Shown: one piece after another, positions 6,834-33,943 of the stretch
How positions within the stretch are numbered: the first letter of the stretch is position 1
Layout of the letters: each line of letters begins with the position of its first letter
Assembly (NCBI GenBank): GCA_938002255.1
Contig: CALLAL010000015.1
Coordinates: 1 to 46,160, forward strand
DNA length: 46,160 bases
Reading direction: 5' to 3'
From: an uncultured bacterium
GTDB taxonomy: Bacteria; Desulfobacterota; BSN033; UBA1163
Position numbers and translations under genes: made by a program
The notes under the pieces: model-generated
Databases searched by the model: none
The model's input: the letters and a program-made list of their open reading frames with translations, nothing else
What the model was told of the DNA's origin: nothing

Positions 6834-7145
6834 CTACTCTCCTTGACGTTTTTTCAGGTGGGGCGGTACCGACAAAATCGCACCCGATGGGAAATAGTCA
6901 AAGGCCATCGGGTAGTCCTGAAAAGCCGTGTTTAAATCTGCCATTGAGGGATGTCGGGTATATCGAGCATCAGTAAAGAGGGCAAGATCGGTTAATTCCA
7001 ACGACTTAACCATCTCACTCCTTCTCTGAAGAATGAGAAGATCTGCCTTTTGGCGAATCACCGTATGGCCACACAGTCCCCCCAAAAGGCCTAAAAGAAA
7101 AACGATCCAGATAAGAAATAGATTTGACTTCCTTCGAAACATCAA
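6834..7145 (-). CDS. Small membrane-anchored protein of the NosL cluster
   Basis: 103 residues with one N-terminal hydrophobic helix (NLFLIWIVFLLGLLGGLCGH) and a soluble tail of about 75 residues holding SLELTDLALFTDARYTRHPS and YFPSGAILSVPPHL. The start overlaps the upstream NosL stop by 4 bp (ATGA), so translation is probably coupled. The tail is predicted to be periplasmic. No catalytic motif is recognised. Its fixed place between NosL and the ABC permease suggests an accessory subunit of the transporter or copper-delivery complex. The family is unknown to me. Confidence 0.8.
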   Translation of the reverse strand: MMFRRKSNLFLIWIVFLLGLLGGLCGHTVIRQKADLLILQRRSEMVKSLELTDLALFTDARYTRHPSMADLNTAFQDYPMAFDYFPSGAILSVPPHLKKRQGE

Positions 7146-7633
7146 TCCAACCCTTTCAAAACCTCCGGAGTGATTTCCTGAAACCTCAACAGGGCCTTGC
7201 CCACATGGTCGACCATAAATTCCTCTGCATCCTCCTTCTTTTCAAAAGGGATCAGTTCTTTCCCCATCGGTCCATAGATATTGCTCCCGATGATGTAGTA
7301 AGCCTTTAATCCATCAATAGGAGCGAGGCGGTAGTAATCATTCACTTGAATGTAGTCAATATCGGTGTGACGTTTTGATGGATTGTATTTTTTTAGATGG
7401 TGATAGTATTTCATCATGTCTTTAACCCCGTCAAAAACCGCATAAGACCCATCTTTATAGACTATGGCGGAAAGCCAGTCCGGATATTTTGCCACAAACA
7501 TTCCACAGACGGGGCATTTATCTTTTGGCAGAGGCTTAATGGGTCTCCGATCTGCACCCTGAACGGGGGAAGAGAGATTCAGTGACAGGATCAGTGCCAG
7601 CGTCAGTGAAAGTTTTGGAAATATTTTGATCAT
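7142..7633 (-). CDS. NosL-family periplasmic copper protein
   Basis: From ATG 7633 (alternative ATG 7654) the product is 163 residues with a signal peptide (IFPKLSLTLALILSLNLSSP). The hallmark KCPVCGMFVAKYPDW follows, then YAVFDGVKDMMKYY, a NosL pattern. NosL binds Cu(I) and helps assemble copper centres. The C-terminus has FEKKEDAEEF, a motif repeated in its neighbour at 7778. A longer frame reaches 7771, but that extension runs through GTGTC-rich repeat sequence and is unlikely to be coding. No nosZ is nearby, so the client is more likely one of the multicopper oxidases encoded upstream; that is inference. Confidence 0.88.
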   Translation of the reverse strand: MIKIFPKLSLTLALILSLNLSSPVQGADRRPIKPLPKDKCPVCGMFVAKYPDWLSAIVYKDGSYAVFDGVKDMMKYYHHLKKYNPSKRHTDIDYIQVNDYYRLAPIDGLKAYYIIGSNIYGPMGKELIPFEKKEDAEEFMVDHVGKALLRFQEITPEVLKGLD

Positions 7634-7777
7634 GACTTCTATCCTTCTATTCATTGCTGTCTGATCGCCCTGATCGATTTTCAATTTTTTAAAAAACGCA
7701 CAGGCAGACTCTCCGACAGAGTCGGATCCCCCTGGCGGAAAGCCCGCTGCTACGGATACCGACACTATCACAGATCT

Positions 7778-8281
7778 CTATTTTTTATGTTGCATCCGTC
7801 TCATTTTTCTTCGTTCACGGATCATCTTGGTATCGGCATACATATCTTCGTAGGCAGCTTTGATGGCGATTTCAAAAGAAGTGATCTCACCTCCGTTCTC
7901 TTTGATAAATGCCTCAGCATCTTCCTTCTTTTCAAAAGCCCACTTTGCCCTTCGGGTCATCACCCCCGATTTGCTTCCGCCAATGACCCAGAAGGCTTTT
8001 TCTGCATCCACCAATCTCTTCGTGTTATAATCCCCGACCCAGATCACTTTGGGCGTTTTGTCAATATGGAGAGCCAGTTCGATACAGGCACAGTGAAGAC
8101 TGCACAGGCCCGCCGTTGCCCCATCATCATATTCAATCAACATCCGGCTATATCCGAAACGTTCCCGATCCATCCCGCAATAGGGGCAGGAAGGATGTTT
8201 CCCGACGTCTCCACTCGGTTGACTGTAAACCATCCCCCACGATAGGGTGATAACAAATACAGGCAACAGCATTTTTTTCAT
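7778..8281 (-). CDS. NosL-family copper protein with basic Met/Lys-rich tail
   Basis: 167 residues with signal peptide (MKKMLLPVFVITLSWGMVYS), then SCPYCGMDRERFGYSRM and GLCSLHCACIELALH. CxxCGM plus CSLHC is the extended cysteine/histidine set of NosL-like proteins. The C-terminus ends in a basic stretch with methionines and histidine (MIRERRKMRRMQHKK), which could add soft metal ligands. A strong AGGAGGAG ribosome-binding site precedes ATG 8281. It is the second NosL copy in the cluster and shares the FEKKEDAE motif with the 7142 gene, which suggests duplication and divergence. Copper binding is well grounded in the family; the client protein is not known. Confidence 0.9.
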   Translation of the reverse strand: MKKMLLPVFVITLSWGMVYSQPSGDVGKHPSCPYCGMDRERFGYSRMLIEYDDGATAGLCSLHCACIELALHIDKTPKVIWVGDYNTKRLVDAEKAFWVIGGSKSGVMTRRAKWAFEKKEDAEAFIKENGGEITSFEIAIKAAYEDMYADTKMIRERRKMRRMQHKK

Positions 8282-8342
8282 GATTTTTCTCCTCCTGTGA
8301 AAAATAATTGTATCCCGAATTTAGCGATTCTTTAAAAAACCC

Positions 8343-8420
8343 TGTAGTCGCAGGGAAGAATTACCTTCGGGTAAAAACCAAAAGCCCAAAAACTTCCCTG
8401 CAATGGTATTCGCAGGCTAC
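8343..8420. repeat. REP-like element with foldback structure in intergenic gap
   Basis: In the 154-bp gap between the NosL gene and the cytochrome fusion gene, CGCAGGGAAG and CTTCCCTGC are complementary and enclose a small TTACC-TTCG-GGTAA hairpin with a UUCG loop. The right end, ATTCGCAGGCTACC, resembles the REP-like family of the window. It could stabilise or separate transcripts. No clear promoter was found in this gap. Confidence 0.5.
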
Positions 8421-8435
8421 CCTCACAGATACGAT

Positions 8436-10031
8436 TTATTCCAGACTGATCCATCCCCCCACTGGATCAAACGTCTTCTGTTTCAGATCAACGGCAACCA
8501 CATAGGCTCCAAGGACACCAATTCGTCGGTTGGGTCCATAGGTGATCTTTGGCGTTAAACCCGTCTCAAATCCTGTTAGCCCTTCTAATTTTTCGATCAG
8601 TTTTTCCCGGCTGACCTCCTTCCCGGATTGTTTTATTCCTTCTACCAGAATCCTGGATGCCACAAAGGCATAAATCTGAAAGGGAAGGTAGCTTTCCGTC
8701 AATCTGTATTTTCTAAAGAGATCCCTCAATTCTTTCAACCCTGTTTCCGTCCGATCAGTGGGAAGCAGGGGGTAAGTGAGATAAATCTTTTTCTGGAACA
8801 GACCAGGAAGGTGCCATAGGTCTCTTCCTATCTTAGAGCCTGAAAGAAAGAACAGGGGTGCCCAGTTGATTTGGTCGGCAGAAAAAGCGAAAACCTTTGC
8901 TTCTTCCCATGAACCCAAGAATAAAATGGCTTCCACTCCTCTTTGATAAAGTTTTCTTACGATGAGAGGATCGAGGCGGCCAGGCGGATAACTGATTTTG
9001 TGAAAGGAATGCCAACCTTCCTGTTTAATCTGCTCCAGTAAACTTTCTTCCACTTCTTCCGAGAGCTCTTCTTCGGGATAGACAAGAACAATCTTAAGAT
9101 CTAACTTCTTGAACTTACTCTTTAAGAGGTGAAGATGAACCAGGATCTCTTCCCTAATCCCAGAAAAGAGATAGAAAACAAAACGGTTTAACGAAAGGTG
9201 TTCAGGGGCAAAGGTATATGGGCCTATGAGGGGAACCTCCTCGTTCTCAAGGTAATCTGAGATCTCCTTTTCTGCCCCTCCGGGGATACCTCCAACCAAC
9301 GCAAAAACTTCCTTTTCGTCAATCAAACGTTTGATGGCAGAAACAGCAGATCCCCTTTTATCCGGAAACGTTACGACTTCAAGTTCAATCTTACGATGGT
9401 AGAGCCCTCCTTGCAGATTCACCTCATTGAAGTATGCCTCCATCATAGCCCTCATGGCTTTCCCGGCCTCAACAAACCTTCCTTCTTCAGGGAAAAAAGT
9501 TCCGATGCGGATTCGATTTTCATGGATGCCGGGTTCAAGTTCATTGCCGAGGCGTTTCAGATAAGCCACCAGGGCGTTAAGTTCCTCTTCCTCCATGGAG
9601 TAAATTGGCATGGCAGGATTTAATCGGTTTCCGGCAGGATCTATTCCCTTGGTAATGGCTCTAACGAGAGTCTCCTCGTTATAAGCAGACCTCTGTCTCC
9701 CATCCATCTGCCTGACGTGATAAGGTTTGGTTAACTCTTTGTAAGTAATGTTGGATGGGTAAATCCCGCTTGAAGGCCTACCCTGCCCATTTCGACCATG
9801 ACAGTTCACACAGGGCATCACCGACCCGGGAGCCTCAGTAGAAGCGATGCCAATAAAGGCTTTGATCTCCCTGCCAAAGGGACTGATCGTTTTAAGATAG
9901 ATCTGTTTGCCACGTTTCTCCTGCTCTGTCAAACGCTCTGCCATAAGAGCTTGCGGAAACGAGAAGAAGAGAAGAAGGATATTGATCAACGACACCGTCA
10001 CTGACACTGGCACGGAGATGGACACTTTCAT
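8436..10031 (-). CDS. Cytochrome c fused to a type 1 periplasmic binding protein domain
   Basis: 531 residues. A signal peptide (to about residue 31) is followed by a class I cytochrome c domain with haem motif CVNCH (near residue 76) and a likely axial Met in NPAMPIYSM (near 142). From about 175 to the end is a Leu/Ile/Val-binding-like periplasmic domain (IRIGTFFPEEGRFVEAGKAMRAM, then VFALVGGIPGGAEKEISDYL). It starts by ATGA overlap with the upstream Sco-like gene, so translation is coupled. The fusion suggests a redox-linked sensor or a protein that binds a ligand near a haem; this is inference. The signal-peptide start is unusual, being encoded by GTGTC-rich repeat DNA (residues ISVPVSVTVS). 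Confidence 0.88.
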   Translation of the reverse strand: MKVSISVPVSVTVSLINILLLFFSFPQALMAERLTEQEKRGKQIYLKTISPFGREIKAFIGIASTEAPGSVMPCVNCHGRNGQGRPSSGIYPSNITYKELTKPYHVRQMDGRQRSAYNEETLVRAITKGIDPAGNRLNPAMPIYSMEEEELNALVAYLKRLGNELEPGIHENRIRIGTFFPEEGRFVEAGKAMRAMMEAYFNEVNLQGGLYHRKIELEVVTFPDKRGSAVSAIKRLIDEKEVFALVGGIPGGAEKEISDYLENEEVPLIGPYTFAPEHLSLNRFVFYLFSGIREEILVHLHLLKSKFKKLDLKIVLVYPEEELSEEVEESLLEQIKQEGWHSFHKISYPPGRLDPLIVRKLYQRGVEAILFLGSWEEAKVFAFSADQINWAPLFFLSGSKIGRDLWHLPGLFQKKIYLTYPLLPTDRTETGLKELRDLFRKYRLTESYLPFQIYAFVASRILVEGIKQSGKEVSREKLIEKLEGLTGFETGLTPKITYGPNRRIGVLGAYVVAVDLKQKTFDPVGGWISLE

Positions 10032-10615
10032 TCCCTTGTCTCAAGAGTCCGAAGTCCCTCAGCCACAGAGAAAGCCGGCGCCGTTTCGGGAAGCCGCATC
10101 CACTTCCCCGTTCTCAGATTACCAAGTAGGAAAACCTGAAGATGGGCTTCGGGCGAGGGATTTCGATTGCCCAGTCTTAAATTGATTGTCCGCAAATGGT
10201 CACTCTTCCCGGTGATAAACATCCATCCGGGTTTTGGATTAAACCTCGAGGCATACTCCTGGACCGCCTTCAGCGTATCCCGCTCAGGATCAACGCTTAC
10301 GGAGAGGAAATGGATGGTCTCGCCTAATCGGTTCCCAACCATCTTCTGAAGCTTGAAAAGAGTAATCAAACTGACCTGCGCTGTTGGGCAGTTGGTATAA
10401 AAGAAGTTGATGACCACCAACTTGTCTTTCAGAAGATCGTTATAAAAACGCACCTCTTTTCCTTCATGGGTCATGACGATCGTATCCGTGAAATATCTTC
10501 TTCCCTTTTCATCGATGTCTCCATTCTGACCCGCCTCCCCAAACACATAAAAAGGAATCATGATGACAAAGAGGGAGAAAAGAATGATCCATCTACCTCT
10601 ACACTCCATGAGCAT
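10028..10615 (-). CDS. Sco1/SenC-like protein lacking the second copper cysteine
   Basis: 195 residues: signal peptide, then a thioredoxin-like fold with VVINFFYTNCPTAQVSL where Sco proteins have CxxxC. The first Cys is kept but the second is Gln. SVSVDPERDTLKAVQEYA is a clear Sco segment, and a His remains near the usual copper-ligand position (SPEAHLQVFLL). Sco proteins deliver Cu or reduce cysteines in cytochrome oxidase CuA and similar sites. With only Cys plus His it may bind copper differently or act as a reductant. It lies 17 bp after a second Sco-like gene with the same loss. Confidence 0.87.
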   Translation of the reverse strand: MLMECRGRWIILFSLFVIMIPFYVFGEAGQNGDIDEKGRRYFTDTIVMTHEGKEVRFYNDLLKDKLVVINFFYTNCPTAQVSLITLFKLQKMVGNRLGETIHFLSVSVDPERDTLKAVQEYASRFNPKPGWMFITGKSDHLRTINLRLGNRNPSPEAHLQVFLLGNLRTGKWMRLPETAPAFSVAEGLRTLETRE

Positions 10616-10632: not shown

Positions 10633-11268
10633 CTATGGAGAGGGCAATTGTTTATTGATCTGAGCCAGGAGAATCTCTGGAGGGGGATACCCATGGAATT
10701 GTTTCCATTCTCCCTGGACCTTTCCAACCAGAGTCAGAGGAATGTGTTGGTGTTCATCCAGACTCTGGCCCACAATGTATTGGACACCTATCCCTGAAAG
10801 AACGGTGGCCAAATTGGTCAGTTCACCTGAAAGAAAGACCCACCCCGGCCGGGCCTTCTGCTTGCGAGCAAAGGCTTTTAAGCGGATGGGAATATCGGTC
10901 TTTGGGTCAACGCTGATTGAGATCAGAAGCACGTCCTTTCCCAGCCGATCGCCAAGCATCTCCTGAAGACGAGTAAAGATAAAAATTAAAATCGGATAAG
11001 CCGTCGTACAGGTCGTGTAAAAAGGGACGACGGCAACAACCTTATCTCCAATGACGTCGCTTTTAAATTTCACCTTCTTCCCATCCTGATCCCAGAGGTC
11101 AAGATCAAAGAGTTTTACCTCAGGGGTTCGAATCTCGGTACGTGAGGGCTGGGCAAGAGAGATTGAAAAGAATAACAACAAAGAGGAAAACCATAGAAGG
11201 GCGGATATCCATACCCATCTCCGTACCAACCCATGCCTTTGTCTTCTCTCATTGATCTTCTGATTCAT
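10633..11268 (-). CDS. Sco1/SenC-like protein lacking the second copper cysteine (paralogue)
   Basis: 211 residues with an N-terminal hydrophobic segment (WVWISALLWFSSLLLFFSIS), a probable uncleaved anchor or signal. The Sco core is visible as VAVVPFYTTCTTAYPIL, LLISISVDPKTDIPIRLKAFA and SLDEHQHIPLTLVG. The canonical CxxxC is reduced to C-T-T-A-Y; the downstream His region (EHQH) is kept. It sits 9 bp after the YVTN-propeller gene and just before the other Sco-like gene. I infer that the pair works in copper loading of exported oxidases. Loss of the same cysteine in both copies argues for selection, not decay. Confidence 0.87.
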   Translation of the reverse strand: MNQKINERRQRHGLVRRWVWISALLWFSSLLLFFSISLAQPSRTEIRTPEVKLFDLDLWDQDGKKVKFKSDVIGDKVVAVVPFYTTCTTAYPILIFIFTRLQEMLGDRLGKDVLLISISVDPKTDIPIRLKAFARKQKARPGWVFLSGELTNLATVLSGIGVQYIVGQSLDEHQHIPLTLVGKVQGEWKQFHGYPPPEILLAQINKQLPSP

Positions 11269-13221: not shown

Positions 13222-13239
13222 AACAACGCACCTTCTTAC

Positions 13240-13309
13240 CGCAGGCTGAAGCCTGCGACTACGATTTCTATCAATTGACATTTGCGGGTAGCCGAAGGCC
13301 TCAGCCTGC
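13240..13309. repeat. Two REP-like palindromes at the 5' end of the YVTN gene
   Basis: CGCAGGCTGAAGCCTGCG (13240-13257) is a near-perfect palindrome. A second, less regular copy (GCGGGTAGCC then GAAGGCCTCAGCCTGC) lies at 13284-13309. Their presence inside the longest open frame is why a downstream start is preferred. Confidence 0.7.
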
Positions 13310-13349
13310 ATATCAACTCTGTCTATTTTATATTTCTTTCCTTTATACT

Positions 13350-13407: not shown

Positions 13408-16400
13408 TTATTCCACTCTGAAGATCCCCCACATCCCGTCATAGTTATGGAAGGGATCCATCATTCGATAGAGATAATCCCCAGAGATTCCAAACGCTCC
13501 CCCTGCACCATGAACAGGGATAATGTCCCAATGTCCGGTTGGACCAATCCCCTCCTGACTTCCCATCAGCTGAGACGTTGGATTACTCACGATGCGATCT
13601 GGCCCTTTGATATTGGAGTTGCTATTGTATGGCTCCCGCTCCCAGAGATGACCATGAAGGGTTAAAACGCCATTGGTGACGCCTGCCCCGGTGGGCATTA
13701 CAAACCGGAACCTGACAGGGGTCAAAGCGGTTGCTCGAAAGATGGGGGTTTCAGGATCTGCCGCCGGAGTCAATTGGGCGTTGGCATACACATTTTGGGT
13801 AAAGAAATTTCTTTGCGCTTCAGGCGATAGATGGGGCGGATATCCCAGCCTGAACCAGAGGGGCTCTGTCCTGTAATTGATCCCTTTATTGCCGGTAATT
13901 TCTACATCCTCTCCTTTTCTTCCCCCTTCTCCTCCAGACATAGGTACTGGATTGTTATTGGCATACCTGAGCTGAAATCCTTTCTGAAGCACAGCAACAA
14001 AGTCCCGGAATGTCTCACTTCCTGTCTGAACCGTCGCAGAGGCGCGTGTGTCGGGATCCTCTGTCCAGGTAGCACCCTGCGGAAGGATAACCATCGCACC
14101 TACAAGCCCTTTGTCTCCCTGTTCAATCTTATCGGCTGGCAACAGACCCACTACGCCAAATTCAACAGGGGTTGCTTCAAGTCTCGAAACATTACTGAAG
14201 ACTCTTCTCAGTCGTAGATCTCCTGCATACCAGCGATAACGGACAACCCCTCCAGGAGGTGCGGTTTGAACCGGATTTCTTCCCACATTGGTCCCATCCG
14301 CCCGTGTGACGTCATACTCTAAAAGCTGGACATGAAGCCCCACGTGGCTGGAGGGAATGATATCATTGGCATTAAATGTAACTTTCCCCGTGGGAGTAAC
14401 CTCCCGATCAACGATGGCCTGGATGTTTCTCCAGCCAGGAAGGTCTGGCACCGTGGAAGGTAAATTATTTCTTAAAGTCACTTCAATACAATCTCCAGCA
14501 TTGGCTCTCAAGATAAGAGGCTCCACCGGAACCCCTGTTTTGAGTTTGCCTGTAACAGGATCAATATCATCTGTGAAAACATAGAGCAGAGCCGTTGGAT
14601 CATGAAGTGGACCACTTCCTCCTTCAATGACCTGCCCTCCTCGAATGATATCCGGGATAACCGTTGGCCTTGAATTATAGATCAGAGTGCTTATTCCAAG
14701 AAGAGGATTCTCTAAAAGTACATCTGCCGCTCTGACGGCCGTAATATCAAATTGCCTTCTCGGGGAAGTGATCGGGCAGGCACCGCTGAATTGATCATTA
14801 CCGAGAAAATCACTTCGGTTCTGAATGATATGCCCCCTTGTCCCCAGGCGGTTATTTGGAAGGACATAGAGATCGGAGCGCTGTCTGTTGTAAGCCCTTA
14901 CAATTCCCCACACTCCATTCCAGTATCCATCGCCGGAAGCACTGGCGCTATATAGATAATCCGAAGCGTTTCCGATCTGACCCTGATCACCGATGAAAGG
15001 AACGATGAAGGTAAACTGTTCATCAATTCCCAGATGTTGCGTGTTTCGCCAGCCTGAGTTGTAATTGGCAAATTCTTGAAGCCATTTCATTCCATGAATC
15101 GAAAAGTTATGGGAATCTTCCGTCGCACCGGTTTGAATTCGCACCCGAATATTGTCTCCATCATACACTCTCAGAATGGGTGTGGCGGGGTCTTTTGGCC
15201 CTACGTCAAAAGTAAGCTGGGTTCCAGCTAAAGGAGGACCGATCGTATAACCTGTGTTCAAACCTTCAAAAGGTTGTGGCACAACGGACGAATCTCTGAC
15301 AGAAGCAGGCATCACCGTATTAAGCTCCGGTATCGCCCTGTTTATGGAAGAAGAGGATGAGAAAGCAAAGGCAAGATCTCCAGCCAGACCATCGGCCTGG
15401 GCACCGGGTGTGCCGGTTCTTGGATTAATCTTGTTGGGATCGAAAATTCGAAGGCCTATCGGTTCATTTCGATAGTTCACGACCATCGTCCCCACGTGAT
15501 CAGCGGAAATGGCTTCCGGGCAGGGTCTGAGGTTAATTCCATCAGGACAGATCGCCGGGAATTGAACAATATCTCCGGGATCTGCTGCAGTCGCATTCGC
15601 CGCCTCTACGCGAAAAGATGGATTAATCGCATAGAGATAACTTTGAGAATCAATGGTTCCAGGCCAGTTGGCTTTGTAGGCATGCTGAAAATCGCCCCAC
15701 TCAAGCAAGAACTCACGGAAAGCAGGACCATCCAGGTGGTTCCTTTCACCCAGGATGACCGCCTGCCAGCTTGTTGGGCCACCATCATGGCGATTTCCAA
15801 GAAGGGCGCCCGTCTCATTATGCCTCCACGTTGAACCGGCTGGCTCAACAATCAACGTAGCATAAAGACCTGTCTGTTGATGTGACGAAGGACCAAAATG
15901 GTCATGGGTAAAGACCAATCCGAGGGTGCGATCCCTGCCCTCATAGTCGAGAATTGGATCGGCAAACCATCGCTGAACGGTTGTCCTTGCCCCGAGCCAT
16001 CTTCCATTCGGCCCTGAACCGAAGAAGGGATGAGGTCTGGCAGTCAGTTCAATCCGATCCCCCCCTTCGTATGGAATCAATCCTCCTGCTTCATTAATGG
16101 CATGAATCCTCTCTCTCACCTCGTCAGGACTGAACGTTCCATCCTCATAATTGAAACCGTTTGCCGAACCATCCGATGAAGTCACGTCAAACTTAACCAG
16201 ATGGATGTGTTGACCAATAACATCGGTAGGGGTTCGAACCTGATAGTCATCAAGTTCATAGTAGCTGGGCACGAGATTGGTATGCCAGTATTCAGCACAG
16301 TCGTTCGTGTTAAGCCTCATGACAAAGGGCTCAGGGGGTCTCAACCCGGACATGGTCGGCATAACGTCTTCCCATAAGGTAATCAGTCTTTGCTGAGGAT

Positions 16401-18831
16401 GATGCCAACCCACCTTATTAAAGATGACATCCGTTTGAATATTGGCTCCTTTGTAGGTTCTCGGGTTTTCCGCTCCATACAGAATGGCCTTTGGAGTTTG
16501 TGCAGTCTGACCATTGAAAAAGGGCGTTATCCCGGGCAAAAGGGCATTTCCATTGTCATCCATGCAGGGGTCTGCATAAGGCGCACCTCTCTTGGGAGGT
16601 CTTCCGTTTGTCCTAAATTGGGCCGGCGTGCCATCCGGTTTAAAACTGTTATGGAATTTCTGACTGTGAAAATTCATAGCTGCCTTTTCGGCAGGGGTTC
16701 CCTCTTCTGGAATCTGAAGGGCATCCGCATTAAGAAGTTCCTTGCTGAAGTCAATTCGAGAGGCCACCTGTCTGATCAGGGTGCCAGTGGTATCGGTATT
16801 GGCTCCCAATGGACCTACAATGATATGTCTGGGCAACCCTCCATCGTCAATGAGATCAAATGGTGGCGTAGGAGGCCGATGACCGGCAATTCCCGCAATG
16901 AAGAAAGGAAAGCCAGGATTCCGATCCGGAATTCCGTCTCCATCATTATCCGGTTCTGTGATGACAATCTGGCTTCCGGGAAGACCTGGCTGGGCAACGA
17001 CAGTGGCTCCACCAGGCATGGGAGGCATAGGCAATCCAGGAATGGGAACAACCCCTGGGATGGGCGTTCCAGCCGCAATCTCTCCATCAGGCAGGGCCCT
17101 TGATCCTGGAGCCGGTTTGGCGCTTCCAAGGGTAAAAGGAGCTCTGCCTCCGTTTCGGAATCTCGAAACGAACTGAACCTCAAGCTTCGTTCCCTCTTCA
17201 AAGACATCATGATTTCGCCAGAGCGCCCACATCCCCTGTGCAAAGTGGGGATAAAAATGGCAGTGAAAGATGGCATCGCCAGGAGTTTTATTCCGATTTC
17301 CGCTTCCACCGAAGGCAATATCGTAAGTGTATCCACTGCCAGGTCCAACAGCCTGGCCATCCAGATAGGAGGACTTATCATTCATTGGAGAAAAAACCCA
17401 TTGGTGACTGTGAAGATGAAACATATGGTGTTCCGTACCCGCATGAAGATTTCTGATCTTCACATGATCGTTAATGTAACTGTGGTGGACCAGGGAGGGA
17501 TCGTCCGGATAAAAAGCAACCGTCGCCCTGGGTCCAGGAACCCGCTGGCCATTCACGATGGGACCGGCGTTGGCAGGAATGTCAACCACCATTCCGGGGT
17601 CTGCAACCACCCAGGAGGTGAGAAAAAACTCCTCATATTTGCAATCATTACAGTCCCACATCGGTCCCAATCCAAGTCGATTCGCAATGATCTCTGAACC
17701 TATGCCACCCGTTCCATAATTGATAGCAAAGGTATCCCTGACTCCATGCAGGGTGTGTCGGAAAGTCGGGTTGTTAAAGAATTCGGGAAAGGCTTGAAGA
17801 GAAAAAATCTCATCATGAAAGATGACTGTGAATTCACGAAAAGGTTGCTGCTGCTCAGGGTTAACAGGGGTAGAAGGATAATGCGTTCCCGGAAGAAAAT
17901 TCCCCCGATTAGGCCCTGTGATGATTGCATTAAGATCGGAATGGACGATCTGATTTCCGTCGAGCATCTTTAGGATGGGAAGGCCAATGCCGCGTCTCAC
18001 TTTCCCTTCTGTGATGAAAGGTTCCCTGTTTGGATAACGAGCATCGTAATTAATGATAGGATGTCCATCCGGTGTCCTTCCAATGGTTGCCAGATCCATC
18101 TCCTCCCGGGTGACCTGGCTCCGATACCATTCCGACCCTCTGGGTTCCACGTTGACCGCCCCGAAAAGACCGAAAGCCGTTGTCCCCCCCATGCCTTCAG
18201 CGCCTGTGGTAGAACCCATATTATAAAGGAGGTAAGTGTTTTCAAACTCGGCATAGAATCGATAGGTGATGGACTGGCCAGGCATGACCAGACCATTCAA
18301 TCCGGAGGGTCCGGGTTGCGTTTGAGAATTTCTTCCAACATTTGATCCATCGGAAAGAATGCTTCCAACGGGTTGCATTCCATTCACATGAATGCCTGCC
18401 GCTCTGGTTACCGGTTGGTCGTCTATCTGGACACCATTGACAACAGCCACAGCAGGGGTAGGGCTCAAAAGGTTAGTGAAGTTAACTTGTAAACAGTCCC
18501 CCGAATTCATCCGCAGCACAATGGGTCTGGGCCTTTTATCTGGCCTTAACTGTACAAAACCCGGGGTTAATACGCCCACCTGTCCTTGAGCATTTCGAAC
18601 ACCTTCAGGTGTTCCGGTCCTGACGTCAATCACATCGCGCCTTAACGCATACATCATTCCAATGGGGTTAAACGTCCCTAATCGGTTATAGAAGATGGGT
18701 TGGTCAAGGGCAACAACATCGGCAATGATCGTTCGATTGCATTGCTGAGCATCAACACTTGAAACGAAAAAGAAGATCAAGCTAAAGGCGAATCCTAAAA
18801 GGCAGATGGTTTTCCTATTGACCCTGTTCAT
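13408..18831 (-). CDS. Giant (1807-residue) six-cupredoxin multicopper oxidase, MnxG-like
   Basis: A signal peptide (MNRVNRKTICLLGFAFSLIF) is followed by about six cupredoxin-like segments. The four HxH motifs expected of a multicopper oxidase are present: HLH within HHMFHLHSHQW (468-478), HCHFYPHFAQGMW (523-535, with the T1 Cys at 524), HIH (875-877) and HDH (976-978, in HDHFGPSSHQQTGLY). Other segments keep only remnants (HNFSIHGMKW near 1241, LHGHLWE near 1724). A Pro/Gly-rich linker with DNDGDGIPD lies around 585-690. This arrangement resembles the Mn(II) oxidase MnxG and Geobacter-type large MCOs, but it is longer. It would be exported and could oxidise a metal or take part in extracellular electron transfer; the substrate is unknown. 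The start overlaps the receiver gene by 4 bp. Confidence 0.9.
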   Translation of the reverse strand: MNRVNRKTICLLGFAFSLIFFFVSSVDAQQCNRTIIADVVALDQPIFYNRLGTFNPIGMMYALRRDVIDVRTGTPEGVRNAQGQVGVLTPGFVQLRPDKRPRPIVLRMNSGDCLQVNFTNLLSPTPAVAVVNGVQIDDQPVTRAAGIHVNGMQPVGSILSDGSNVGRNSQTQPGPSGLNGLVMPGQSITYRFYAEFENTYLLYNMGSTTGAEGMGGTTAFGLFGAVNVEPRGSEWYRSQVTREEMDLATIGRTPDGHPIINYDARYPNREPFITEGKVRRGIGLPILKMLDGNQIVHSDLNAIITGPNRGNFLPGTHYPSTPVNPEQQQPFREFTVIFHDEIFSLQAFPEFFNNPTFRHTLHGVRDTFAINYGTGGIGSEIIANRLGLGPMWDCNDCKYEEFFLTSWVVADPGMVVDIPANAGPIVNGQRVPGPRATVAFYPDDPSLVHHSYINDHVKIRNLHAGTEHHMFHLHSHQWVFSPMNDKSSYLDGQAVGPGSGYTYDIAFGGSGNRNKTPGDAIFHCHFYPHFAQGMWALWRNHDVFEEGTKLEVQFVSRFRNGGRAPFTLGSAKPAPGSRALPDGEIAAGTPIPGVVPIPGLPMPPMPGGATVVAQPGLPGSQIVITEPDNDGDGIPDRNPGFPFFIAGIAGHRPPTPPFDLIDDGGLPRHIIVGPLGANTDTTGTLIRQVASRIDFSKELLNADALQIPEEGTPAEKAAMNFHSQKFHNSFKPDGTPAQFRTNGRPPKRGAPYADPCMDDNGNALLPGITPFFNGQTAQTPKAILYGAENPRTYKGANIQTDVIFNKVGWHHPQQRLITLWEDVMPTMSGLRPPEPFVMRLNTNDCAEYWHTNLVPSYYELDDYQVRTPTDVIGQHIHLVKFDVTSSDGSANGFNYEDGTFSPDEVRERIHAINEAGGLIPYEGGDRIELTARPHPFFGSGPNGRWLGARTTVQRWFADPILDYEGRDRTLGLVFTHDHFGPSSHQQTGLYATLIVEPAGSTWRHNETGALLGNRHDGGPTSWQAVILGERNHLDGPAFREFLLEWGDFQHAYKANWPGTIDSQSYLYAINPSFRVEAANATAADPGDIVQFPAICPDGINLRPCPEAISADHVGTMVVNYRNEPIGLRIFDPNKINPRTGTPGAQADGLAGDLAFAFSSSSSINRAIPELNTVMPASVRDSSVVPQPFEGLNTGYTIGPPLAGTQLTFDVGPKDPATPILRVYDGDNIRVRIQTGATEDSHNFSIHGMKWLQEFANYNSGWRNTQHLGIDEQFTFIVPFIGDQGQIGNASDYLYSASASGDGYWNGVWGIVRAYNRQRSDLYVLPNNRLGTRGHIIQNRSDFLGNDQFSGACPITSPRRQFDITAVRAADVLLENPLLGISTLIYNSRPTVIPDIIRGGQVIEGGSGPLHDPTALLYVFTDDIDPVTGKLKTGVPVEPLILRANAGDCIEVTLRNNLPSTVPDLPGWRNIQAIVDREVTPTGKVTFNANDIIPSSHVGLHVQLLEYDVTRADGTNVGRNPVQTAPPGGVVRYRWYAGDLRLRRVFSNVSRLEATPVEFGVVGLLPADKIEQGDKGLVGAMVILPQGATWTEDPDTRASATVQTGSETFRDFVAVLQKGFQLRYANNNPVPMSGGEGGRKGEDVEITGNKGINYRTEPLWFRLGYPPHLSPEAQRNFFTQNVYANAQLTPAADPETPIFRATALTPVRFRFVMPTGAGVTNGVLTLHGHLWEREPYNSNSNIKGPDRIVSNPTSQLMGSQEGIGPTGHWDIIPVHGAGGAFGISGDYLYRMMDPFHNYDGMWGIFRVE

Positions 18832-19196
18832 TTTTTTCTTTCCTTTCGAAACGTTTGGATTTCTTTTTTAAGGTCTTCCATACTAAATGGTTTTTTCAGA
18901 CACGAGTGAGCTCCACAGGATAACGATTCAGAAATCTCTTTTGTACTAGCCTTTCCTGAAATGGTGATGACTGGAATTTCTGGTTTTAAACTTTTAATTA
19001 TTTTTAACGCGTTGAGACCGTCAACACCCGGCATGACCAGATCCAGAAGCACACAATCATATGGGTTGGCAATACATTTCAGAATAGCATCCACTCCATT
19101 GCTGACATGATCCACCTGGTGGCTTTCTTCTTCCAGTTCTTTCTTGAGAATGGTAGCAAAATTCATGTCATCATCAGCAAGAAGAATATGGGGCAC
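18828..19196 (-). CDS. Single-domain response regulator (CheY-like) embedded in the MCO operon
   Basis: 122 residues forming only a receiver domain: acidic pair DDD at 8-10, phospho-acceptor Asp near 52 in LLDLVMPG, and KKPF with Lys near 102. There is no output domain. It starts with GTG at 19196 behind AAGGAA. Its stop overlaps the ATG of the giant oxidase (ATGA), so the two are translationally coupled. A cytoplasmic signalling protein inside an operon of exported oxidases is unusual. It may act as a phosphate sink or relay partner for the kinase at 22791 or another kinase; no partner is shown by sequence. Confidence 0.9.
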   Translation of the reverse strand: MPHILLADDDMNFATILKKELEEESHQVDHVSNGVDAILKCIANPYDCVLLDLVMPGVDGLNALKIIKSLKPEIPVITISGKASTKEISESLSCGAHSCLKKPFSMEDLKKEIQTFRKERKK

Positions 19197-19220: not shown

Positions 19221-20498
19221 CTAACTAATCACAAACGGAATCCTTGCCGTCATTAATAATCGGTCGGCCTCATGTTTTCTAAATTCAACGGTTGCAAAGG
19301 AGTTGACAGCGACTGATGATCGGATTAAAGCTCCAAATCGCCTTGCCACACTCAATTTGATCGGTGTCCCTGCTTTCACCGGGTAGGCTGAATTATACGA
19401 TCCATAGGGCGGAATCCCCAGGGCTCTTCCGTCCCAGGCAATGATCACCACATCCACCGGAAAGGTCACTCTTGCTGTTCCGTAAGCCGCATCAAGACAA
19501 CGGATTAGAATCGTCTGATTTCTCTGAGCATTAATCGAAACCTGAGTTCCTGAAACGCCGCTATTAAGTGCAGCAGGAATGACAACATTGGGAGGAATCG
19601 TTCCGGGACCAGGGGCGCGGACCGGAATGGGTACGCCCGTAATAAAGAAATAGTCCGGGTTGTAGTCATGAAAGAAGCCATGGTAAAAGATGTCATTTAT
19701 TCCAGGCTGAGTTCCATGACCCGGAAAGAAAGCCGCATGATCTGCAGCAATATCATGCCATACTGAATCAACCGCCTGAAGCACCCAGTAAGCCTCCACA
19801 TCATAGGGAACCGTGTAAGCCTGGGGATCGCCACTGGTCAGGGGATTCGTATTCAGTTCTGGAAATTGAGGAAAGTTCGAAGTGTTTCCCGCTATCCGAC
19901 GGGGATAACCTCCCCAGTTTGGACCTGAAAAGGCATCGGGCGGCTCCACAATAAAAAGTCCGTAAAGCCCAAACTCAAAATGTTGAACGGTGTTCCGGTG
20001 GCAGTGATAAAAATAAGTTCCAATAAAATTGGGTTGAAATTGGTAAGTATATCGACCGAGTTCCATGGAACAGTGGCCTACGCCGTCATTAATGGGGGTG
20101 GGTTCAAGCCCATGCCAGTGAATCGTGTGTGGACCGCCATGGGTCATCGTTTCGCAATGAAATATGGTTCCTCTGGGTACCCGAATCGTTGCCCCCGGAA
20201 AATTTCCATTCTGGGTCGAAGGGTTGTCTTGATCTGTAAAGACAAACATCTCAACTCTCCTTCCATCCCACATATCTAATCGCAAACCATGGAGTAAATC
20301 ACGCTGAACCGTATTGGGGGTAGTCACTCTATCCTGGTAACCCGCCGCCAGCATCAACCCTGGGACTGGATTGGTCGGTGCTAAGAGTTCCGGAGTAGGC
20401 GGATTTGCCTGTGGTGGATCAAAAGTCTTTACCCAATGGCCCTCATGACCTTCCACAGACCGACGATGTATATGATAAGCTGGATTTTCAAAAGACAT
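19221..20498 (-). CDS. Multicopper oxidase-like protein carrying HWH and HCH copper motifs (half of a split MCO?)
   Basis: 425 residues. HTIHWHG near residue 127 and FYHCHRNTVQHFEFGLYG near 164 supply one T2/T3 and one T1/T3 histidine pair, with the T1-type Cys. No second HxH pair is seen in the C-terminal half, which has a beta-rich domain but not the expected HxxHxH/HDH set. No signal peptide is visible at the N-terminus (MSFENPAYHIHRRSVEGHEG), so export would need a partner or another route. It lies 26 bp after the Tat-type MCO gene, which has the complementary HIH and HDH motifs. I infer the two form one functional oxidase. AGGGAG precedes ATG 20498. Confidence 0.88.
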   Translation of the reverse strand: MSFENPAYHIHRRSVEGHEGHWVKTFDPPQANPPTPELLAPTNPVPGLMLAAGYQDRVTTPNTVQRDLLHGLRLDMWDGRRVEMFVFTDQDNPSTQNGNFPGATIRVPRGTIFHCETMTHGGPHTIHWHGLEPTPINDGVGHCSMELGRYTYQFQPNFIGTYFYHCHRNTVQHFEFGLYGLFIVEPPDAFSGPNWGGYPRRIAGNTSNFPQFPELNTNPLTSGDPQAYTVPYDVEAYWVLQAVDSVWHDIAADHAAFFPGHGTQPGINDIFYHGFFHDYNPDYFFITGVPIPVRAPGPGTIPPNVVIPAALNSGVSGTQVSINAQRNQTILIRCLDAAYGTARVTFPVDVVIIAWDGRALGIPPYGSYNSAYPVKAGTPIKLSVARRFGALIRSSVAVNSFATVEFRKHEADRLLMTARIPFVIS

Positions 20499-20524
20499 AC
20501 AAATCTCCCTTCTATCTCTATCGA

Positions 20525-21985
20525 TTAGTGATCTTCATGCCCTGCGGCTGGTCCAGTTTCGTTATGCGGATGTTCTAACGGAGCCTTCGGAAATGTAATA
20601 ATTCCCCCAGGCAGAGTTCGATCACCCGTAAAGTTAATACCTGCGATCATTCCAAGATTATAATTTCCACCCTGTGCCACCTGAGAAGGTTCATTGTGAT
20701 CATGCATTGGAAAACAAAGAGGAGAAAGCTGAACAGAGATGTCTGGCGAATTAGGATCTGCAGGGTTTGCTCGTGTCCCCACTGCTGGAATAAATAAGTT
20801 AATCTCCTCGAGAGGAGGCCAGACAGGATGAGGAGTCGATCCCTGAATCTGTGGGTTGGCAAGACAGGTCAGAGGAGGATCAGGAAATCCAATCCCACGA
20901 GTGTTGGGGACCTCAGGGGGCCTTGTAAATGGAACCAGCCAATCAAACGTTCCTAAAGGATAAAGGTCAAACGTATCAATCCAGATGGGGTTACTCTGAA
21001 CCCTTCCGTTAATGGCGATCACATAGACATGATTGGCATGGATGTGCAATGAATGCATCCACAGCCCTGCATTGAGAACGCGAATGACAACAGGTTCACC
21101 CACTCGTTGGTGGGGTGAAATATAAGGATTATGATGTGAAAAATAGCCTGACTGGCCATTAATCGTAAAAAAATGGGGTTTATGATTGAATTGATCATTG
21201 ATCGGGGTTACCCGATTGTCATTAGAGGTTGCGATAAAGCTATCGTTAAGGAATTCCAGGACAAAATCTCTCCGGTCATATATTCTATTGGAGGGGAGTT
21301 CTCCCACATCCCGAAAAAGTCTCGGGCTGGCTTGATGGAGCAACCAGATATATTGACGAAATGGGGCTGTGTGAGGAGTTACAGAATCATCACCTTGCTC
21401 CCAGGAAAGCCCTGGAAAATGAGTTGTTGTTCCGAGATCATCGAAAAGCATCTGTACCTGAGGTGTGGGTCTCTCATAGGGAGTAAAGTTGTGACCCGGA
21501 CGGGGGGCTCGTGGCATAACGATAAAAGCTCCGTGAAGTCCCATGACCCGGTTCACCGGAGCATTGAGGTTATCGTAATAGAGAAAAGTTCCAGCCTTTT
21601 TTGCCACAAACCTCTTCTTGATGGTCTGCCCAGGAGCTATTGGACCGCTGTTAAATATTCCCGGGATGAAAAAAGAATGGGGTTCGTCGAGATCGTTCGT
21701 AATCACGACCCGCACTACATCTCCCTGTGTCGTAAAAATTGTCGGTCCTGGACATTCTGGTGGAAAACGGTCTTCTTTATAAATCCAGAAATAGCACTGG
21801 GCTGGATTGAGAGAGTTGTGAGTGACCATATCTTTTATCGCATCGGTAATATGGAAATTGAGCGTCTGGACATGAACCGCTCCCTCTGCCGTGTTCTCAA
21901 GCCAATCCATCTGAGATCCGACAACAAGTGCCGTCAATCCCCCCGCTCCATACTTTATAAATTCCCGTCTTGAAATCTTTTCCAT
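20525..21985 (-). CDS. Tat-exported multicopper oxidase-like protein carrying HIH and HDH motifs
   Basis: 486 residues from ATG 21985, chosen over an in-frame GTG at 21991 that sits on the GGAG ribosome-binding site. The N-terminus has a twin-arginine signal (KISRREFIKYGAGGLTALVV), as expected for a folded cofactor protein. Copper motifs are HSLHIHANHVYV near residue 318 and CFPMHDHNEP near 430, followed by QGGNYNLGM. The N-terminal cupredoxin segment (GPTIFTTQGDVVRVVITND) has no HWHG pair. The HWH and HCH motifs it lacks are in the next gene. It is first in an operon of oxidases transcribed from a strong sigma-54 promoter at 22029-22045. The Tat substrate could carry the signal-less partner across the membrane by a hitchhiker route; this is inference. 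Confidence 0.9.
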   Translation of the reverse strand: MEKISRREFIKYGAGGLTALVVGSQMDWLENTAEGAVHVQTLNFHITDAIKDMVTHNSLNPAQCYFWIYKEDRFPPECPGPTIFTTQGDVVRVVITNDLDEPHSFFIPGIFNSGPIAPGQTIKKRFVAKKAGTFLYYDNLNAPVNRVMGLHGAFIVMPRAPRPGHNFTPYERPTPQVQMLFDDLGTTTHFPGLSWEQGDDSVTPHTAPFRQYIWLLHQASPRLFRDVGELPSNRIYDRRDFVLEFLNDSFIATSNDNRVTPINDQFNHKPHFFTINGQSGYFSHHNPYISPHQRVGEPVVIRVLNAGLWMHSLHIHANHVYVIAINGRVQSNPIWIDTFDLYPLGTFDWLVPFTRPPEVPNTRGIGFPDPPLTCLANPQIQGSTPHPVWPPLEEINLFIPAVGTRANPADPNSPDISVQLSPLCFPMHDHNEPSQVAQGGNYNLGMIAGINFTGDRTLPGGIITFPKAPLEHPHNETGPAAGHEDH

Positions 21986-22028
21986 GAGCACTCCAATCTA
22001 AATTTATTTTTGCTCGAAAAGATTAATA

Positions 22029-22234: not shown

Positions 22235-22624
22235 CTACATCTTCTTCATTTCAACTCCACAGGTGCATTTCCCAGGATTCTGGCTGATCGTGTCGCATTT
22301 GCATGCCGGAGGACAGGCGCAGGTATATTTCCCGACAGTTTTAAAGGCTCTCTCTTTTGTCCACCCTTCTGCTTTAAAATAGGCTTTATCCTTCTCCACC
22401 CTTACAACTTTTGCTTTGACCAGATCTGCATCGCAAGTGCATTTACCCGGGTTGTTGGAGATTGTGTCACATGGACATTTCTCTCCACAGGCACAGACAT
22501 AAAGCTCATCACCCACTTTTACCTCAAACTTGCCTCTCGACCCAGCAAAAGAGAGGGTCCCAATTAGCACCACCAGACAGAGAACCAATCCAACTTGAAA
22601 GACTCTTAGAAACTTTTTATCCAT
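22235..22624 (-). CDS. Secreted 12-cysteine metal-binding-like protein
   Basis: 129 residues. A signal peptide (FQVGLVLCLVVLIGTLSFAG) is followed by two copies of a six-cysteine unit: C-A-C-x4-C-x-C-D-T-I-S-x-N-P-G-K-C-T-C near residues 43-65 and 100-122. The spacer has DKAYFKAEGW. All 12 mature cysteines fall in the two units, so this looks like a periplasmic metallothionein-like or cluster-binding protein. I know no named family. Its promoter has the same paired sites as the MCO operon, which suggests copper buffering or delivery to the oxidases. GGAGGAAAG precedes ATG 22624. Alternatives are disulfide-bonded structure or zinc binding. Confidence 0.88.
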   Translation of the reverse strand: MDKKFLRVFQVGLVLCLVVLIGTLSFAGSRGKFEVKVGDELYVCACGEKCPCDTISNNPGKCTCDADLVKAKVVRVEKDKAYFKAEGWTKERAFKTVGKYTCACPPACKCDTISQNPGKCTCGVEMKKM

Positions 22625-25543: not shown

Positions 25544-26455
25544 ATGGGTTGGAAAAGGTTAATGGTCTTCCTTTTTATTCTTCTTGCCTTTTCAACGGTT
25601 CTTCTGATGATACAAACCCAGGCAACAGAAAAATCAGAATTCGTGGGTTCAGAAACCTGCAAAGGATGCCATGAAGGCTACTACAATGATTTCATCAAAT
25701 CGGTTCATGGCAAAAAGGCGGTTCCAGGAAGTCCAATCCATTCGGAAGGGTGTGAATCCTGCCATGGTCCCGGAAGCAAGCACGCCGAGAAAGGAGGGGG
25801 AAAAGAAGGAGGGGTTTTCGGCTTTGAAAGAAAAGCGGACGCCAAAACGAAATCGTCCAGATGCCTTTCCTGTCATGAAACATCCCAGCACCTTGTCTCT
25901 TGGGACATGGGCAAACATCGATCCGCAGGAATCTCCTGTGATCAATGCCACACCATTCACACTGGCGTTGGGAAATCTTATGCATCGAAAGAACCCGATC
26001 TCTGTTACACCTGCCACAAATATATCCGCACTCAGCAGAACAAACAATCCCATCACCCGGTCAACGAAGGAAAAATAAAGTGCAGTAGCTGCCATGAGGT
26101 TCATGGAGGTTTTGGGCAAAGGATGGTGAAAGCTGATTCGGTCAATGATCTCTGTTACAAATGTCATGCTGAAAAGCGGGGCCCCTATGCCTTTGAACAT
26201 CCTCCGGTTCAGGAGAACTGTTTGAATTGCCACGAAGTTCATGGAAGCAACCACACCAAACTGCTGGTCAGAAAAGTCCCCTTCCTCTGTCAGAGTTGCC
26301 ACACCCGGACAGGCCACCCGAGCAGACCGGCAACCAATTATCATTCCTTTTTAGGCCCTGGGGGTTCGCAGAAGAATAGATTTTTTGCACGATCCTGTCT
26401 GAACTGCCACGGGAATATCCATGGAAGCAGCCGATCCCCAGCTTTTGACCGTTAG
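25544..26455 (+). CDS. Decahaem c-type cytochrome, MtrA/DmsE family
   Basis: 303 residues with signal peptide (LMVFLFILLAFSTVLLMIQT) and ten CxxCH motifs: CKGCH, CESCH, CLSCH, CDQCH, CYTCH, CSSCH, CYKCH, CLNCH, CQSCH and CLNCH. The length and count match MtrA, PioA and DmsE, which cross the outer membrane inside an MtrB-type barrel and carry electrons between periplasm and surface. CHxxH-type histidines and other His residues can serve as distal ligands. A strong AGGAGGTGAG precedes ATG 25544. The barrel gene follows after 11 bp. No third (MtrC-like) surface cytochrome is present in the window. Confidence 0.96.
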   Translation: MGWKRLMVFLFILLAFSTVLLMIQTQATEKSEFVGSETCKGCHEGYYNDFIKSVHGKKAVPGSPIHSEGCESCHGPGSKHAEKGGGKEGGVFGFERKADAKTKSSRCLSCHETSQHLVSWDMGKHRSAGISCDQCHTIHTGVGKSYASKEPDLCYTCHKYIRTQQNKQSHHPVNEGKIKCSSCHEVHGGFGQRMVKADSVNDLCYKCHAEKRGPYAFEHPPVQENCLNCHEVHGSNHTKLLVRKVPFLCQSCHTRTGHPSRPATNYHSFLGPGGSQKNRFFARSCLNCHGNIHGSSRSPAFDR

Positions 26456-26466
26456 GAGGTGAGACG

Positions 26467-28500
26467 ATGAAAAAAACCATCATGACAATTGCAATGATCA
26501 TCGGACTGATCCCTTTTGGCATAATCTTCGCTGAAGAAAAGAGGATTGAAGGTGAAATCTCTTTGACAAGCAAGTACATCGGAGTGGATGCCGAAGGAGG
26601 GGGAGAGGCAAAGTTTACCGAATATCGAGATCTGAAGGAAAACGGTGGCTTCTATGGAAGGGCCCGCCTCCGTTACGATACGGAAAGATATTTTCTGAAT
26701 TTTAAAGCATGGGATGTGGGTTACGATACGCAGCGTTATAAACTTGAAGGAGGAATGTGGGGAAGATTCAAATACGATCTTTTCTATCAAGAAATTCCTC
26801 ATCATATTACCTTTGATGCTCGGACCTTCTTTCTGGGAGCCGGTAGGGATACCCTGGTAGGTGCTCCTAATACAAATATTGGATCCTGGAATACGTTTGA
26901 CTATGCATTTGAACGGCGCCAATACGGAGGAGGGTTAAAACTGAACCTGATTAAGCCCTTCTTTTTTAACGCCTCGTTTCAGCGGGAAGAACGAGAGGGG
27001 ATCAAACCGACTGGCGTTGCAGGAACCTCTCCGGGCGGGATCGGAATCGAAATGCCTGAACCTATTGATTATGTCACAAATAACCTGGCCCTCGAGACAG
27101 GTTATGCCAAAAATCCTTTCTTTCTCTCTTTTAACTATTTTTACAGCGGGTTCAATAACAGTAATACGGTCCTGAACTTCACCAATCCTGCTACAGCGAC
27201 ACCTGATACCCTTTCTCTCCCTCCCGACAACACTTACCATAAGGGTTCATTTAAAGGCTCTGTTAAACTCCCCTTTCATAGCCGAATAAGCACCAACATT
27301 GGATTCTCCAAAGGAAAATCAGAGTCATCGGCTTTTCCAACCTTAATCGGAGGCCGAACCGATTTTAGAGGAGAAGTTGAAACATTGAATTATGATCTTA
27401 TCCTGACCACCCACCCCATCCATTTCTTAGATGCAAAGGTTTTTCACAAATTTTATAAGCGAAATAACCGGTCCGATGAAGTTGTGGGAGTTGTGGAAAA
27501 TTTTTTGGATTACGAAGTAAAGCATTACGGTGCAGAGGTCGGTTTAAAACTCCCTTCAAGGGTTTATCTTAATGGCGGCTATCATTATGTGAGAACCGAG
27601 CGCGAATTTATCAAAGCCTTTCAAGATCCTTTGCTGGTTCTCCCGTTTAATAAAGATAATATCTATTTTACAGAATTGAGGTGGAGTGGACTGGATTGGA
27701 TGGATTTGAGGCTGGGTTATGAAAGACTGGATCGTAAGGCGAAAGAGAGAACATCTCAGGCAGAGGCACAGCCCAATAAAATGTATGCCTATGATTCCCA
27801 GAATCGGGATACCATTAAAGCAGCCGTTGACTTTTTCCCATGGGAAAGTTTCGCTTTTGGGCTTGAGTATCGCCACCGAACATCTAATTATGACGGACCC
27901 TTTGGTCTAAAGAAAGACAAGCGGGACGAGATTGCAACGAATGTCGCATACTCTCTCGGGAAACTGGCAAAAATTTATGGGAATGTTGATTTCGCCTGGG
28001 TCACTTTCCATCCCGATCTGGTTAGAACACAGGCTGCCGTTGACTTTCCATGGTCGGCAAAACAGAAAGATAAGACCCTTGGATACGGGCTCGGTACGGA
28101 GATCTATGCGATCCCGAATAAATTGACCTTCGTTTTTCAGCATGATTATCTCAAGTCGAATGGCAACATCGACTTTACCATTGATCCAGCCCTTCTCATC
28201 GCTGCCAATGGATTGGCTGGAGCAGACAACGACACAGTGGATATCATGAGATCGGAAGATTACGTTCTTTATACCTTCAGGTTCAAAACAATCTATCACC
28301 TCACCAAATCCCTGATCGCTTCACTCGGATATGCCTATCAGAGATTTAGTTATCGGGATGATCAACTGGACAACTACCAGTACATTAACCCGCCAGGTGG
28401 ACCGGTCACAGGAACGAATGGTGCCTATCTCACCGGGGCTTATAAAGACCAATCCTACAAAGCCCATCTCATCTTATTGGGATTGACCTATAGGTTTTAG
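26467..28500 (+). CDS. MtrB/PioB-family outer-membrane beta-barrel
   Basis: 677 residues with signal peptide (KKTIMTIAMIIGLIPFGIIF), many amphipathic beta-strands with alternating aromatic residues (RARLRYDTERYFLNFKAWD) and a C-terminal LLGLTYRF, the terminal Phe typical of outer-membrane proteins. Its length and place beside a decahaem cytochrome identify the MtrB/PioB porin that sheathes the cytochrome. The N-terminal CxxC of Shewanella MtrB is absent. GGAGGTGAG precedes ATG 26467. The pair is a complete minimal conduit for moving electrons across the outer membrane, in either direction. A REP-like palindrome lies downstream. Confidence 0.94.
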   Translation: MKKTIMTIAMIIGLIPFGIIFAEEKRIEGEISLTSKYIGVDAEGGGEAKFTEYRDLKENGGFYGRARLRYDTERYFLNFKAWDVGYDTQRYKLEGGMWGRFKYDLFYQEIPHHITFDARTFFLGAGRDTLVGAPNTNIGSWNTFDYAFERRQYGGGLKLNLIKPFFFNASFQREEREGIKPTGVAGTSPGGIGIEMPEPIDYVTNNLALETGYAKNPFFLSFNYFYSGFNNSNTVLNFTNPATATPDTLSLPPDNTYHKGSFKGSVKLPFHSRISTNIGFSKGKSESSAFPTLIGGRTDFRGEVETLNYDLILTTHPIHFLDAKVFHKFYKRNNRSDEVVGVVENFLDYEVKHYGAEVGLKLPSRVYLNGGYHYVRTEREFIKAFQDPLLVLPFNKDNIYFTELRWSGLDWMDLRLGYERLDRKAKERTSQAEAQPNKMYAYDSQNRDTIKAAVDFFPWESFAFGLEYRHRTSNYDGPFGLKKDKRDEIATNVAYSLGKLAKIYGNVDFAWVTFHPDLVRTQAAVDFPWSAKQKDKTLGYGLGTEIYAIPNKLTFVFQHDYLKSNGNIDFTIDPALLIAANGLAGADNDTVDIMRSEDYVLYTFRFKTIYHLTKSLIASLGYAYQRFSYRDDQLDNYQYINPPGGPVTGTNGAYLTGAYKDQSYKAHLILLGLTYRF

Positions 28501-33921: not shown

Positions 33922-33943
33922 AAAAGAGATAAGTTTCAACATA

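Follow-up and report, generated by a model that had tools for sequence, protein, structure and literature searches.

How a multicopper oxidase (MCO) could be encoded by two genes is the question raised by a pair of adjacent reading frames in the window, a stretch of 46,160 nucleotides of DNA from an uncultured bacterium. A sequence-only reading had claimed that the four HxH motifs of one MCO are divided between these two genes. Both reading frames were confirmed on the minus strand, and we refer to their products as subunits A and B. The features of the pair, including the ligands of the type 1 (T1) copper site and of the trinuclear cluster (TNC), are as follows.

20525..21991, minus strand: subunit B (488 residues if read from the GTG at 21991, 486 if read from the ATG at 21985), with a Tat signal, a ligand-free domain 1 and the remaining TNC ligands in domain 2
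21953..21973, minus strand: twin-arginine motif SRREFIK of B, with a hydrophobic stretch after the motif, read from the sequence
21038..21046, minus strand: HIH of B, TNC ligands His316 and His318
20696..20704, minus strand: HDH of B, TNC ligands His430 and His432, with Asp at the place of the T1 Cys
20505..20510, minus strand: AGGGAG ribosome-binding site of A, inside the 26-nt gap and 6 nt upstream of the ATG of A, read from the sequence
19221..20498, minus strand: subunit A, 425 residues without a signal peptide; cupredoxin domain 1 carries the T1 site and one half of the TNC, and domain 2 carries no ligands
20112..20129, minus strand: HTIHWH of A, T1 ligand His124 and TNC ligands His127 and His129; invariant
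19980..20006, minus strand: HCHRNTVQH of A, TNC ligand His165, T1 ligand Cys166, TNC ligand His167 and T1 ligand His173, with the axial Leu178 just downstream; invariant

The stop codon of B and the start codon of A, both on the minus strand, are separated by 26 nt. The roles of the ligands were assigned from established MCO chemistry, and their division between the chains was read straight from the sequence. Domain 1 of A contains a complete T1 set (H124, C166, H173 and the axial L178) together with four TNC histidines; the sequence-only reading had not recognised this T1 site. Comparison of the ligands of both chains by motif and by alignment revealed no T1 site in B. The division is therefore one of the T1 site plus half of the TNC in A against the other half of the TNC in B. 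Neither chain has TNC ligands in both of its domains, since A has no domain-2 ligands and B has no domain-1 ligands. The T1 ligands and eight TNC histidines of a full set were found in neither polypeptide alone, and the pair together has all of them.

Both proteins scored above the Pfam cut-offs for Cu-oxidase_3 (A, 50.3 bits; B, 45.0 bits; cut-off 21) and Cu-oxidase_2 (A, 23.7 bits; B, 26.7 bits; cut-off 20.4), while domain 2 of A gave no Pfam match of its own. The earlier statement that the 425-residue protein has HWH (at 127) and HCH (at 165) is correct, but its statement that this protein has no HIH is not, since an HIH occurs at residues 9-11. This HIH, which is not part of a cupredoxin domain, was rejected as a ligand because homologues do not have it. 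The 486-residue protein was found, as claimed, to have HIH (at 316) and HDH (at 430) and to lack HWH and HCH; it has an additional HPH (at 474) in its tail. In shuffled sequences of A, the combination of HxxHxH and HCHx(3-8)H arose in 5e-5 of the trials, and the simpler motifs of B arose in 4% of shuffles.

To survey the family, genome contigs were searched with the A profile, which gave 73 loci, and all reading frames of these loci were then searched with the A and B profiles. B lies immediately upstream of A, on the same strand and as a separate reading frame, in essentially all loci where A gave a good match; a few of the loci are cut by contig ends or have weak matches only. The resulting 78 B-A pairs come from many phyla and one archaeon. 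The A ligands (T1 and four TNC His) are present in 77/77 pairs where alignable, and the four TNC His of B in 76-77/77; the split between the chains is identical in all pairs. Since the A motifs are too rare in shuffled sequences and their conservation over the 78 pairs is near-absolute, they cannot be attributed to chance.

The hosts of the pair include Deltaproteobacteria, Nitrospirae, Chloroflexi, Phycisphaerae, Poribacteria, Geomonas, Citrifermentans, Minicystis, Bacillus sp. OV166 and the archaeon Candidatus Methanoperedens nitroreducens, and some of them are cultured isolates. More distant pairs were found in Arthrobacter, Hyphomonadaceae, Methylobacterium and Flavobacteriaceae. Within the phylum of the window, A occurs in 12 of 395 genomes and B in the same 12, with no solo copies; their copy numbers in these genomes are equal, save for matches broken by contigs or alignment. 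One genome of the window's genus (G003) has three pairs. No fused A-B homologue was found among the loci examined. The sequence-only reading had named two findings that would speak against it, a full ligand set in one chain and a lack of co-occurrence in other genomes, and neither was obtained. The pair thus looks like a widespread two-subunit MCO whose genes stay adjacent yet unfused across distantly related bacteria and an archaeon.

Two positions vary among the pairs. The axial position of A is Leu in 58 and Met in 19. The residue between the last two histidines of B is Asp in 54 of 77 pairs, Cys in 16 and Ser in seven. The Cys was considered as part of a second T1 site, and this was ruled out because no downstream His is present in the aligned segments. 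The only broken A gene that we saw (L065:5974-7431, the same as L133) is interrupted by an in-frame TGA into 355 and 129 residues, by sequencing error or decay.

A and B are themselves related. An hhalign comparison aligned the two over both domains (270 columns, E 2.5e-18). In this alignment the HTIHWH of A faces PHSFFIP in B and the YHCHRN of A faces YYDNLN, while the HSLHIHANH of B faces TARVTFPVD in A. In a tree of 102 proteins, the B proteins were separated from the others by a starred branch (99*), while A was compatible with one group after a single change (support 43). This grouping suggests that the duplication giving rise to A and B probably predates the spread of the family, the root being unsure owing to the long branches in the tree. 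The distance matrices of A and B were correlated (r 0.93 against a permuted maximum of 0.26), also within the core family only (0.56 against 0.36). A single-chain relative of 369 residues (L111:5824-6930) has all four motif groups, PHTIHWHG, HCHWSTLLH, PHYFHFHG and HDHAES, and may resemble the unsplit ancestor.

The fold was analyzed with AlphaFold2 on a fused model, a read-through of a homologous pair (L043) with stop codons replaced by Gly, 910 residues in all with a short linker, for which paired and unpaired alignment rows were used. The model had a pTM of 0.90 and a mean pLDDT of 87.4. For two unconnected halves, a pTM near 0.5-0.6 is expected. The value obtained therefore indicates that A and B of this homologous pair are predicted to adopt a confident mutual arrangement. 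A shortened fusion of domain 2 of B, a linker and domain 1 of A gave a poor model (pTM 0.47, pLDDT 65.5). The top Foldseek match of the fused model was 9bxa (E 2.5e-23). Matches to ceruloplasmin and coagulation factors had a TM of about 0.4 and a large rmsd, and we therefore make no claim to a ring geometry.

The best sequence-profile matches of A were the type C two-domain MCOs (2dMCOs) 3g5w and 2zwn, which were also among the closest solved relatives of B. The same two structures matched in VIA-align (Z 27.7 and 27.4, respectively), where the query was the full fused model and all matches returned covered the B part; B was aligned to 3g5w over both domains (281 residues, 2.7 Å). Duplication followed by reciprocal loss of ligands would account simply for the paralogy, the tree, the single-chain relative and the fold data. 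From the paralogy with reciprocal ligand loss, together with the pTM of the fused model, we strongly infer that the halves in A and B form one copper site.

The export signals are as unevenly divided as the ligands. The earlier claim of a Tat signal on the second protein and none on the first agrees with the SRREFIK motif and hydrophobic stretch of B and the absence of a signal on A, although the Pfam TAT_signal score of B (14.1 bits) is under the cut-off (22.7). The N-terminus of nearly all core-family B proteins has RRxF and a hydrophobic stretch; a hydrophobic stretch of the signal-peptide type is absent from the N-terminus of every core-family A. The Arthrobacter-type B has no clear RRxF, and the Arthrobacter-type and Flavobacteriaceae pairs deviate from the core pattern. 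The core pattern supports the view, suggested earlier as co-export of a folded complex, that A would be assembled with B in the cytoplasm and exported as a Tat hitch-hiker.

A second family of split pairs was also found (L038:443-3046, L114:5785-8488, L112:3892-6628 and L143-L159). It is similar to the core pair in its complementary ligands, with HTVHxHG and HCHVEATEH in A' and HPFHxH and HSHxE in B', and in its perfect co-occurrence, A' and B' both being present in the same 11 of 267 genomes. It differs in that the gene order is reversed, A' then B' rather than B-A, and in that A' and B' each have a Sec-type signal sequence. The comparison of the two families suggests that each subunit either has its own signal or rides with a signal-bearing partner.

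Downstream of A, the window encodes the following proteins.

18828..19196, minus strand: single-domain response regulator between A and the giant MCO, read from the sequence
13408..18831, minus strand: MnxG-like giant MCO of 1807 residues, with its own complete motifs HMFHLH, HCHFYPH, HIH and HDH
11278-13311, minus strand: beta-propeller/YtkA-like protein
10633-11268, minus strand: SCO1/SenC protein
7142..10615, minus strand: second SCO1/SenC protein, a cytochrome c-Peripla_BP_6 protein, and two NosL proteins

The MnxG-like protein scored 1835.5 bits against the MnxG equivalog NF041487 (cut-off 3100), which makes it a homologue and not an equivalog. At two further loci, L055 of Methanoperedens and L087 of Bacillus sp. 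OV166, the pair is likewise followed by an MnxG-like gene. The whole genomes of G003 and G028, both with pairs, have no MnxG-like homologue, and the MnxG-like gene is therefore not part of the core. In Geomonas, SCO1-YtkA and cytochrome-Peripla_BP_6 genes follow the pair, and similar proteins occur in Citrifermentans and at L053. A reasonable reading is that the SCO1 and NosL neighbours serve copper delivery, and that the cytochrome c-Peripla_BP_6 region at 7142..10615, with its NosL and SCO1 proteins, provides copper delivery and redox partners. At 18 loci, though not beside the pair of the window, a di-haem cytochrome c peroxidase/MauG-like gene lies near the split pair (for example, L037:4451-6538), and it may mark a pathway common with the pair.

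Other explanations of the pair should be weighed against these results. Frameshifts can produce split reading frames, and the two genes might stem from a misassembly or a spurious frameshift, or be the two pieces of a decaying gene. Each subunit, however, has two domains, and the two align as paralogues, so that A and B are not two halves of one chain. In addition, the same separate frames recur across dozens of independently made assemblies, including several from cultured isolates. This conservation refutes the reading of the pair as artefact or decay, to which we assign a negligible likelihood. A different possibility is that no common copper cluster exists, A being a homo-oligomeric electron-transfer cupredoxin with a T1 site only and B a distinct partner that binds copper or has a structural role, adjacent to A because of a common pathway. 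The T1 site is indeed complete in A alone, and the shortened model was not confident. A T1-only protein, however, needs none of the four TNC histidines that A keeps, the HCH bridge included, nor the exactly complementary four of B, and all of these are invariant over the 78 pairs. The pTM of the fused model and the missing signal on A also favour a tight complex. It is therefore unlikely that A acts as a T1-only protein.

The neighbourhood allows another interpretation, in which the pair serves the adjoining MnxG-like oxidase as accessory subunits, comparable with MnxE and MnxF of Bacillus MnxG. The Mnx complex does need such subunits (PMC5622069), and the MnxG-like gene follows the pair at the three loci mentioned above. 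Most pairs, however, have no MnxG-like gene nearby, two genomes with pairs have none at all, and the MnxG-like protein has a complete set of motifs of its own; we regard an accessory role as unlikely. The pair might also be a heteromeric copper nitrite reductase of the NirK type rather than an O2-reducing oxidase. NirK shares with the pair the two-domain cupredoxin fold, an inter-subunit copper site and a T1 site in domain 1; its structures stand high in the fold and sequence rankings, and hosts such as Methanoperedens and Geobacteraceae are anaerobic. NirK, however, has no TNC, and its three-His type-2 site does not need the eight TNC histidines, all of which are kept in the pair. The NCBIfam NirK model TIGR02376 gave 22.0 and 24.3 bits, far below its cut-off of 296.3, and the best fold matches are 2dMCOs. 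A nitrite reductase is thus very unlikely.

We consider it highly probable that one heteromeric MCO, derived from a type C-like 2dMCO, has A and B as its two subunits. After duplication of the ancestral gene, copy A would have kept the sites of domain 1 (the T1 copper, HWH and HCH) and lost those of domain 2, and copy B would have kept the HxH pair of domain 2 (HIH and HDH) and lost those of domain 1. The cluster could then be built only at the interface between domain 1 of A and domain 2 of B. Electrons from the substrate would enter at the T1 copper of A and pass through its His-Cys-His to the common cluster, where O2 would be reduced. A and B would fold together in the cytoplasm and leave by the Tat route on the signal of B, with A as the hitch-hiker. 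Copper would be inserted after export, a step in which the SCO1 and NosL proteins of the downstream genes plausibly take part. One point, which bears on the putative stoichiometry, stands against a two-subunit MCO: A and B cannot alternate in a three-subunit ring.

Adjacent protomers of a 2dMCO both contribute histidines to the trinuclear cluster, one through its domain 1 and the other through its domain 2 (PMC13151041). The type C enzymes, the Nitrosomonas europaea blue copper oxidase (3g5w) and a metagenomic laccase (2zwn), share with the pair two cupredoxin domains, a T1 site in domain 1 and, as proposed for the pair, a TNC completed between chains. The known ones are, however, homotrimers with all ligands in one chain, whereas here the ligands of domain 1 and domain 2 are on two gene products, each of them lacking the half that the other retains. 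The Mnx complex of Bacillus sp. PL-12 (MnxG with MnxE and MnxF), represented by the top Foldseek match, is like the pair a multi-subunit MCO. MnxG is its only MCO, with all MCO ligands in that one chain. Heterodimeric fungal laccases of the Pleurotus POXA3 type are MCOs purified with a second subunit, the large subunit being a complete laccase and the small one no MCO half. MnxE and MnxF have no similarity to characterised proteins (PMC5622069), and the term for heterodimeric laccases occurs in PMC3129051. A search of the open-access literature, preprints excepted, for heterodimeric, heteromeric, bipartite or split MCOs yielded only fungal laccases with accessory subunits; such absence is no proof. 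The pair is apparently a conserved and undescribed heteromeric variant of two-domain MCOs.

MCO classes rest on the number of domains and the T1 position in one chain, an assumption broken by a family in which neither chain is an oxidase alone. The ligand split also explains why each gene is annotated as a mere 'multicopper oxidase domain-containing protein', and such pairs would be overlooked when metal or lignin oxidases are sought by requiring a full ligand set in each protein. The pair would offer a clean, naturally occurring example of gene duplication in which the two copies lost opposite parts of an active site at a subunit interface. Tat hitch-hiking of a cupro-enzyme becomes testable with it, the related Sec-exported family serving as the control. 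More tentatively, and with somewhat less than even confidence, we propose that obligately heteromeric MCOs form an undescribed class that is widespread among bacteria and archaea and arose by duplication and reciprocal ligand loss, with two sister lineages differing in export (a Tat hitch-hiker with order B-A; Sec-type signals on both with order A'-B'), and that some are extracellular metal oxidases beside MnxG-like enzymes.

An axial Leu in laccases goes with a high potential. This residue, together with the neighbouring MnxG-like and cytochrome genes, leads us to prefer a reduced metal, for instance Mn(II) or Fe(II), as the substrate, a choice that we hold with low confidence.

Further genes of the window may be mentioned. 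Upstream of B, a protein of 129 residues (22235-22624) has two copies of the Cys-rich motif CACxxxCxCDTIxxNPGKCTC and is probably metal-binding. The region 25544-28500 encodes a multihaem cytochrome and, after it, an MtrB/PioB outer-membrane barrel (251 bits); the two could serve, beside the copper enzymes, as an extracellular electron conduit. Six proteins encoded at 1940-3676 and 32713-44186 have differing N-terminal parts and a common repeated C-terminal module ([15 protein letters not shown]...GAWYI.PSSG).
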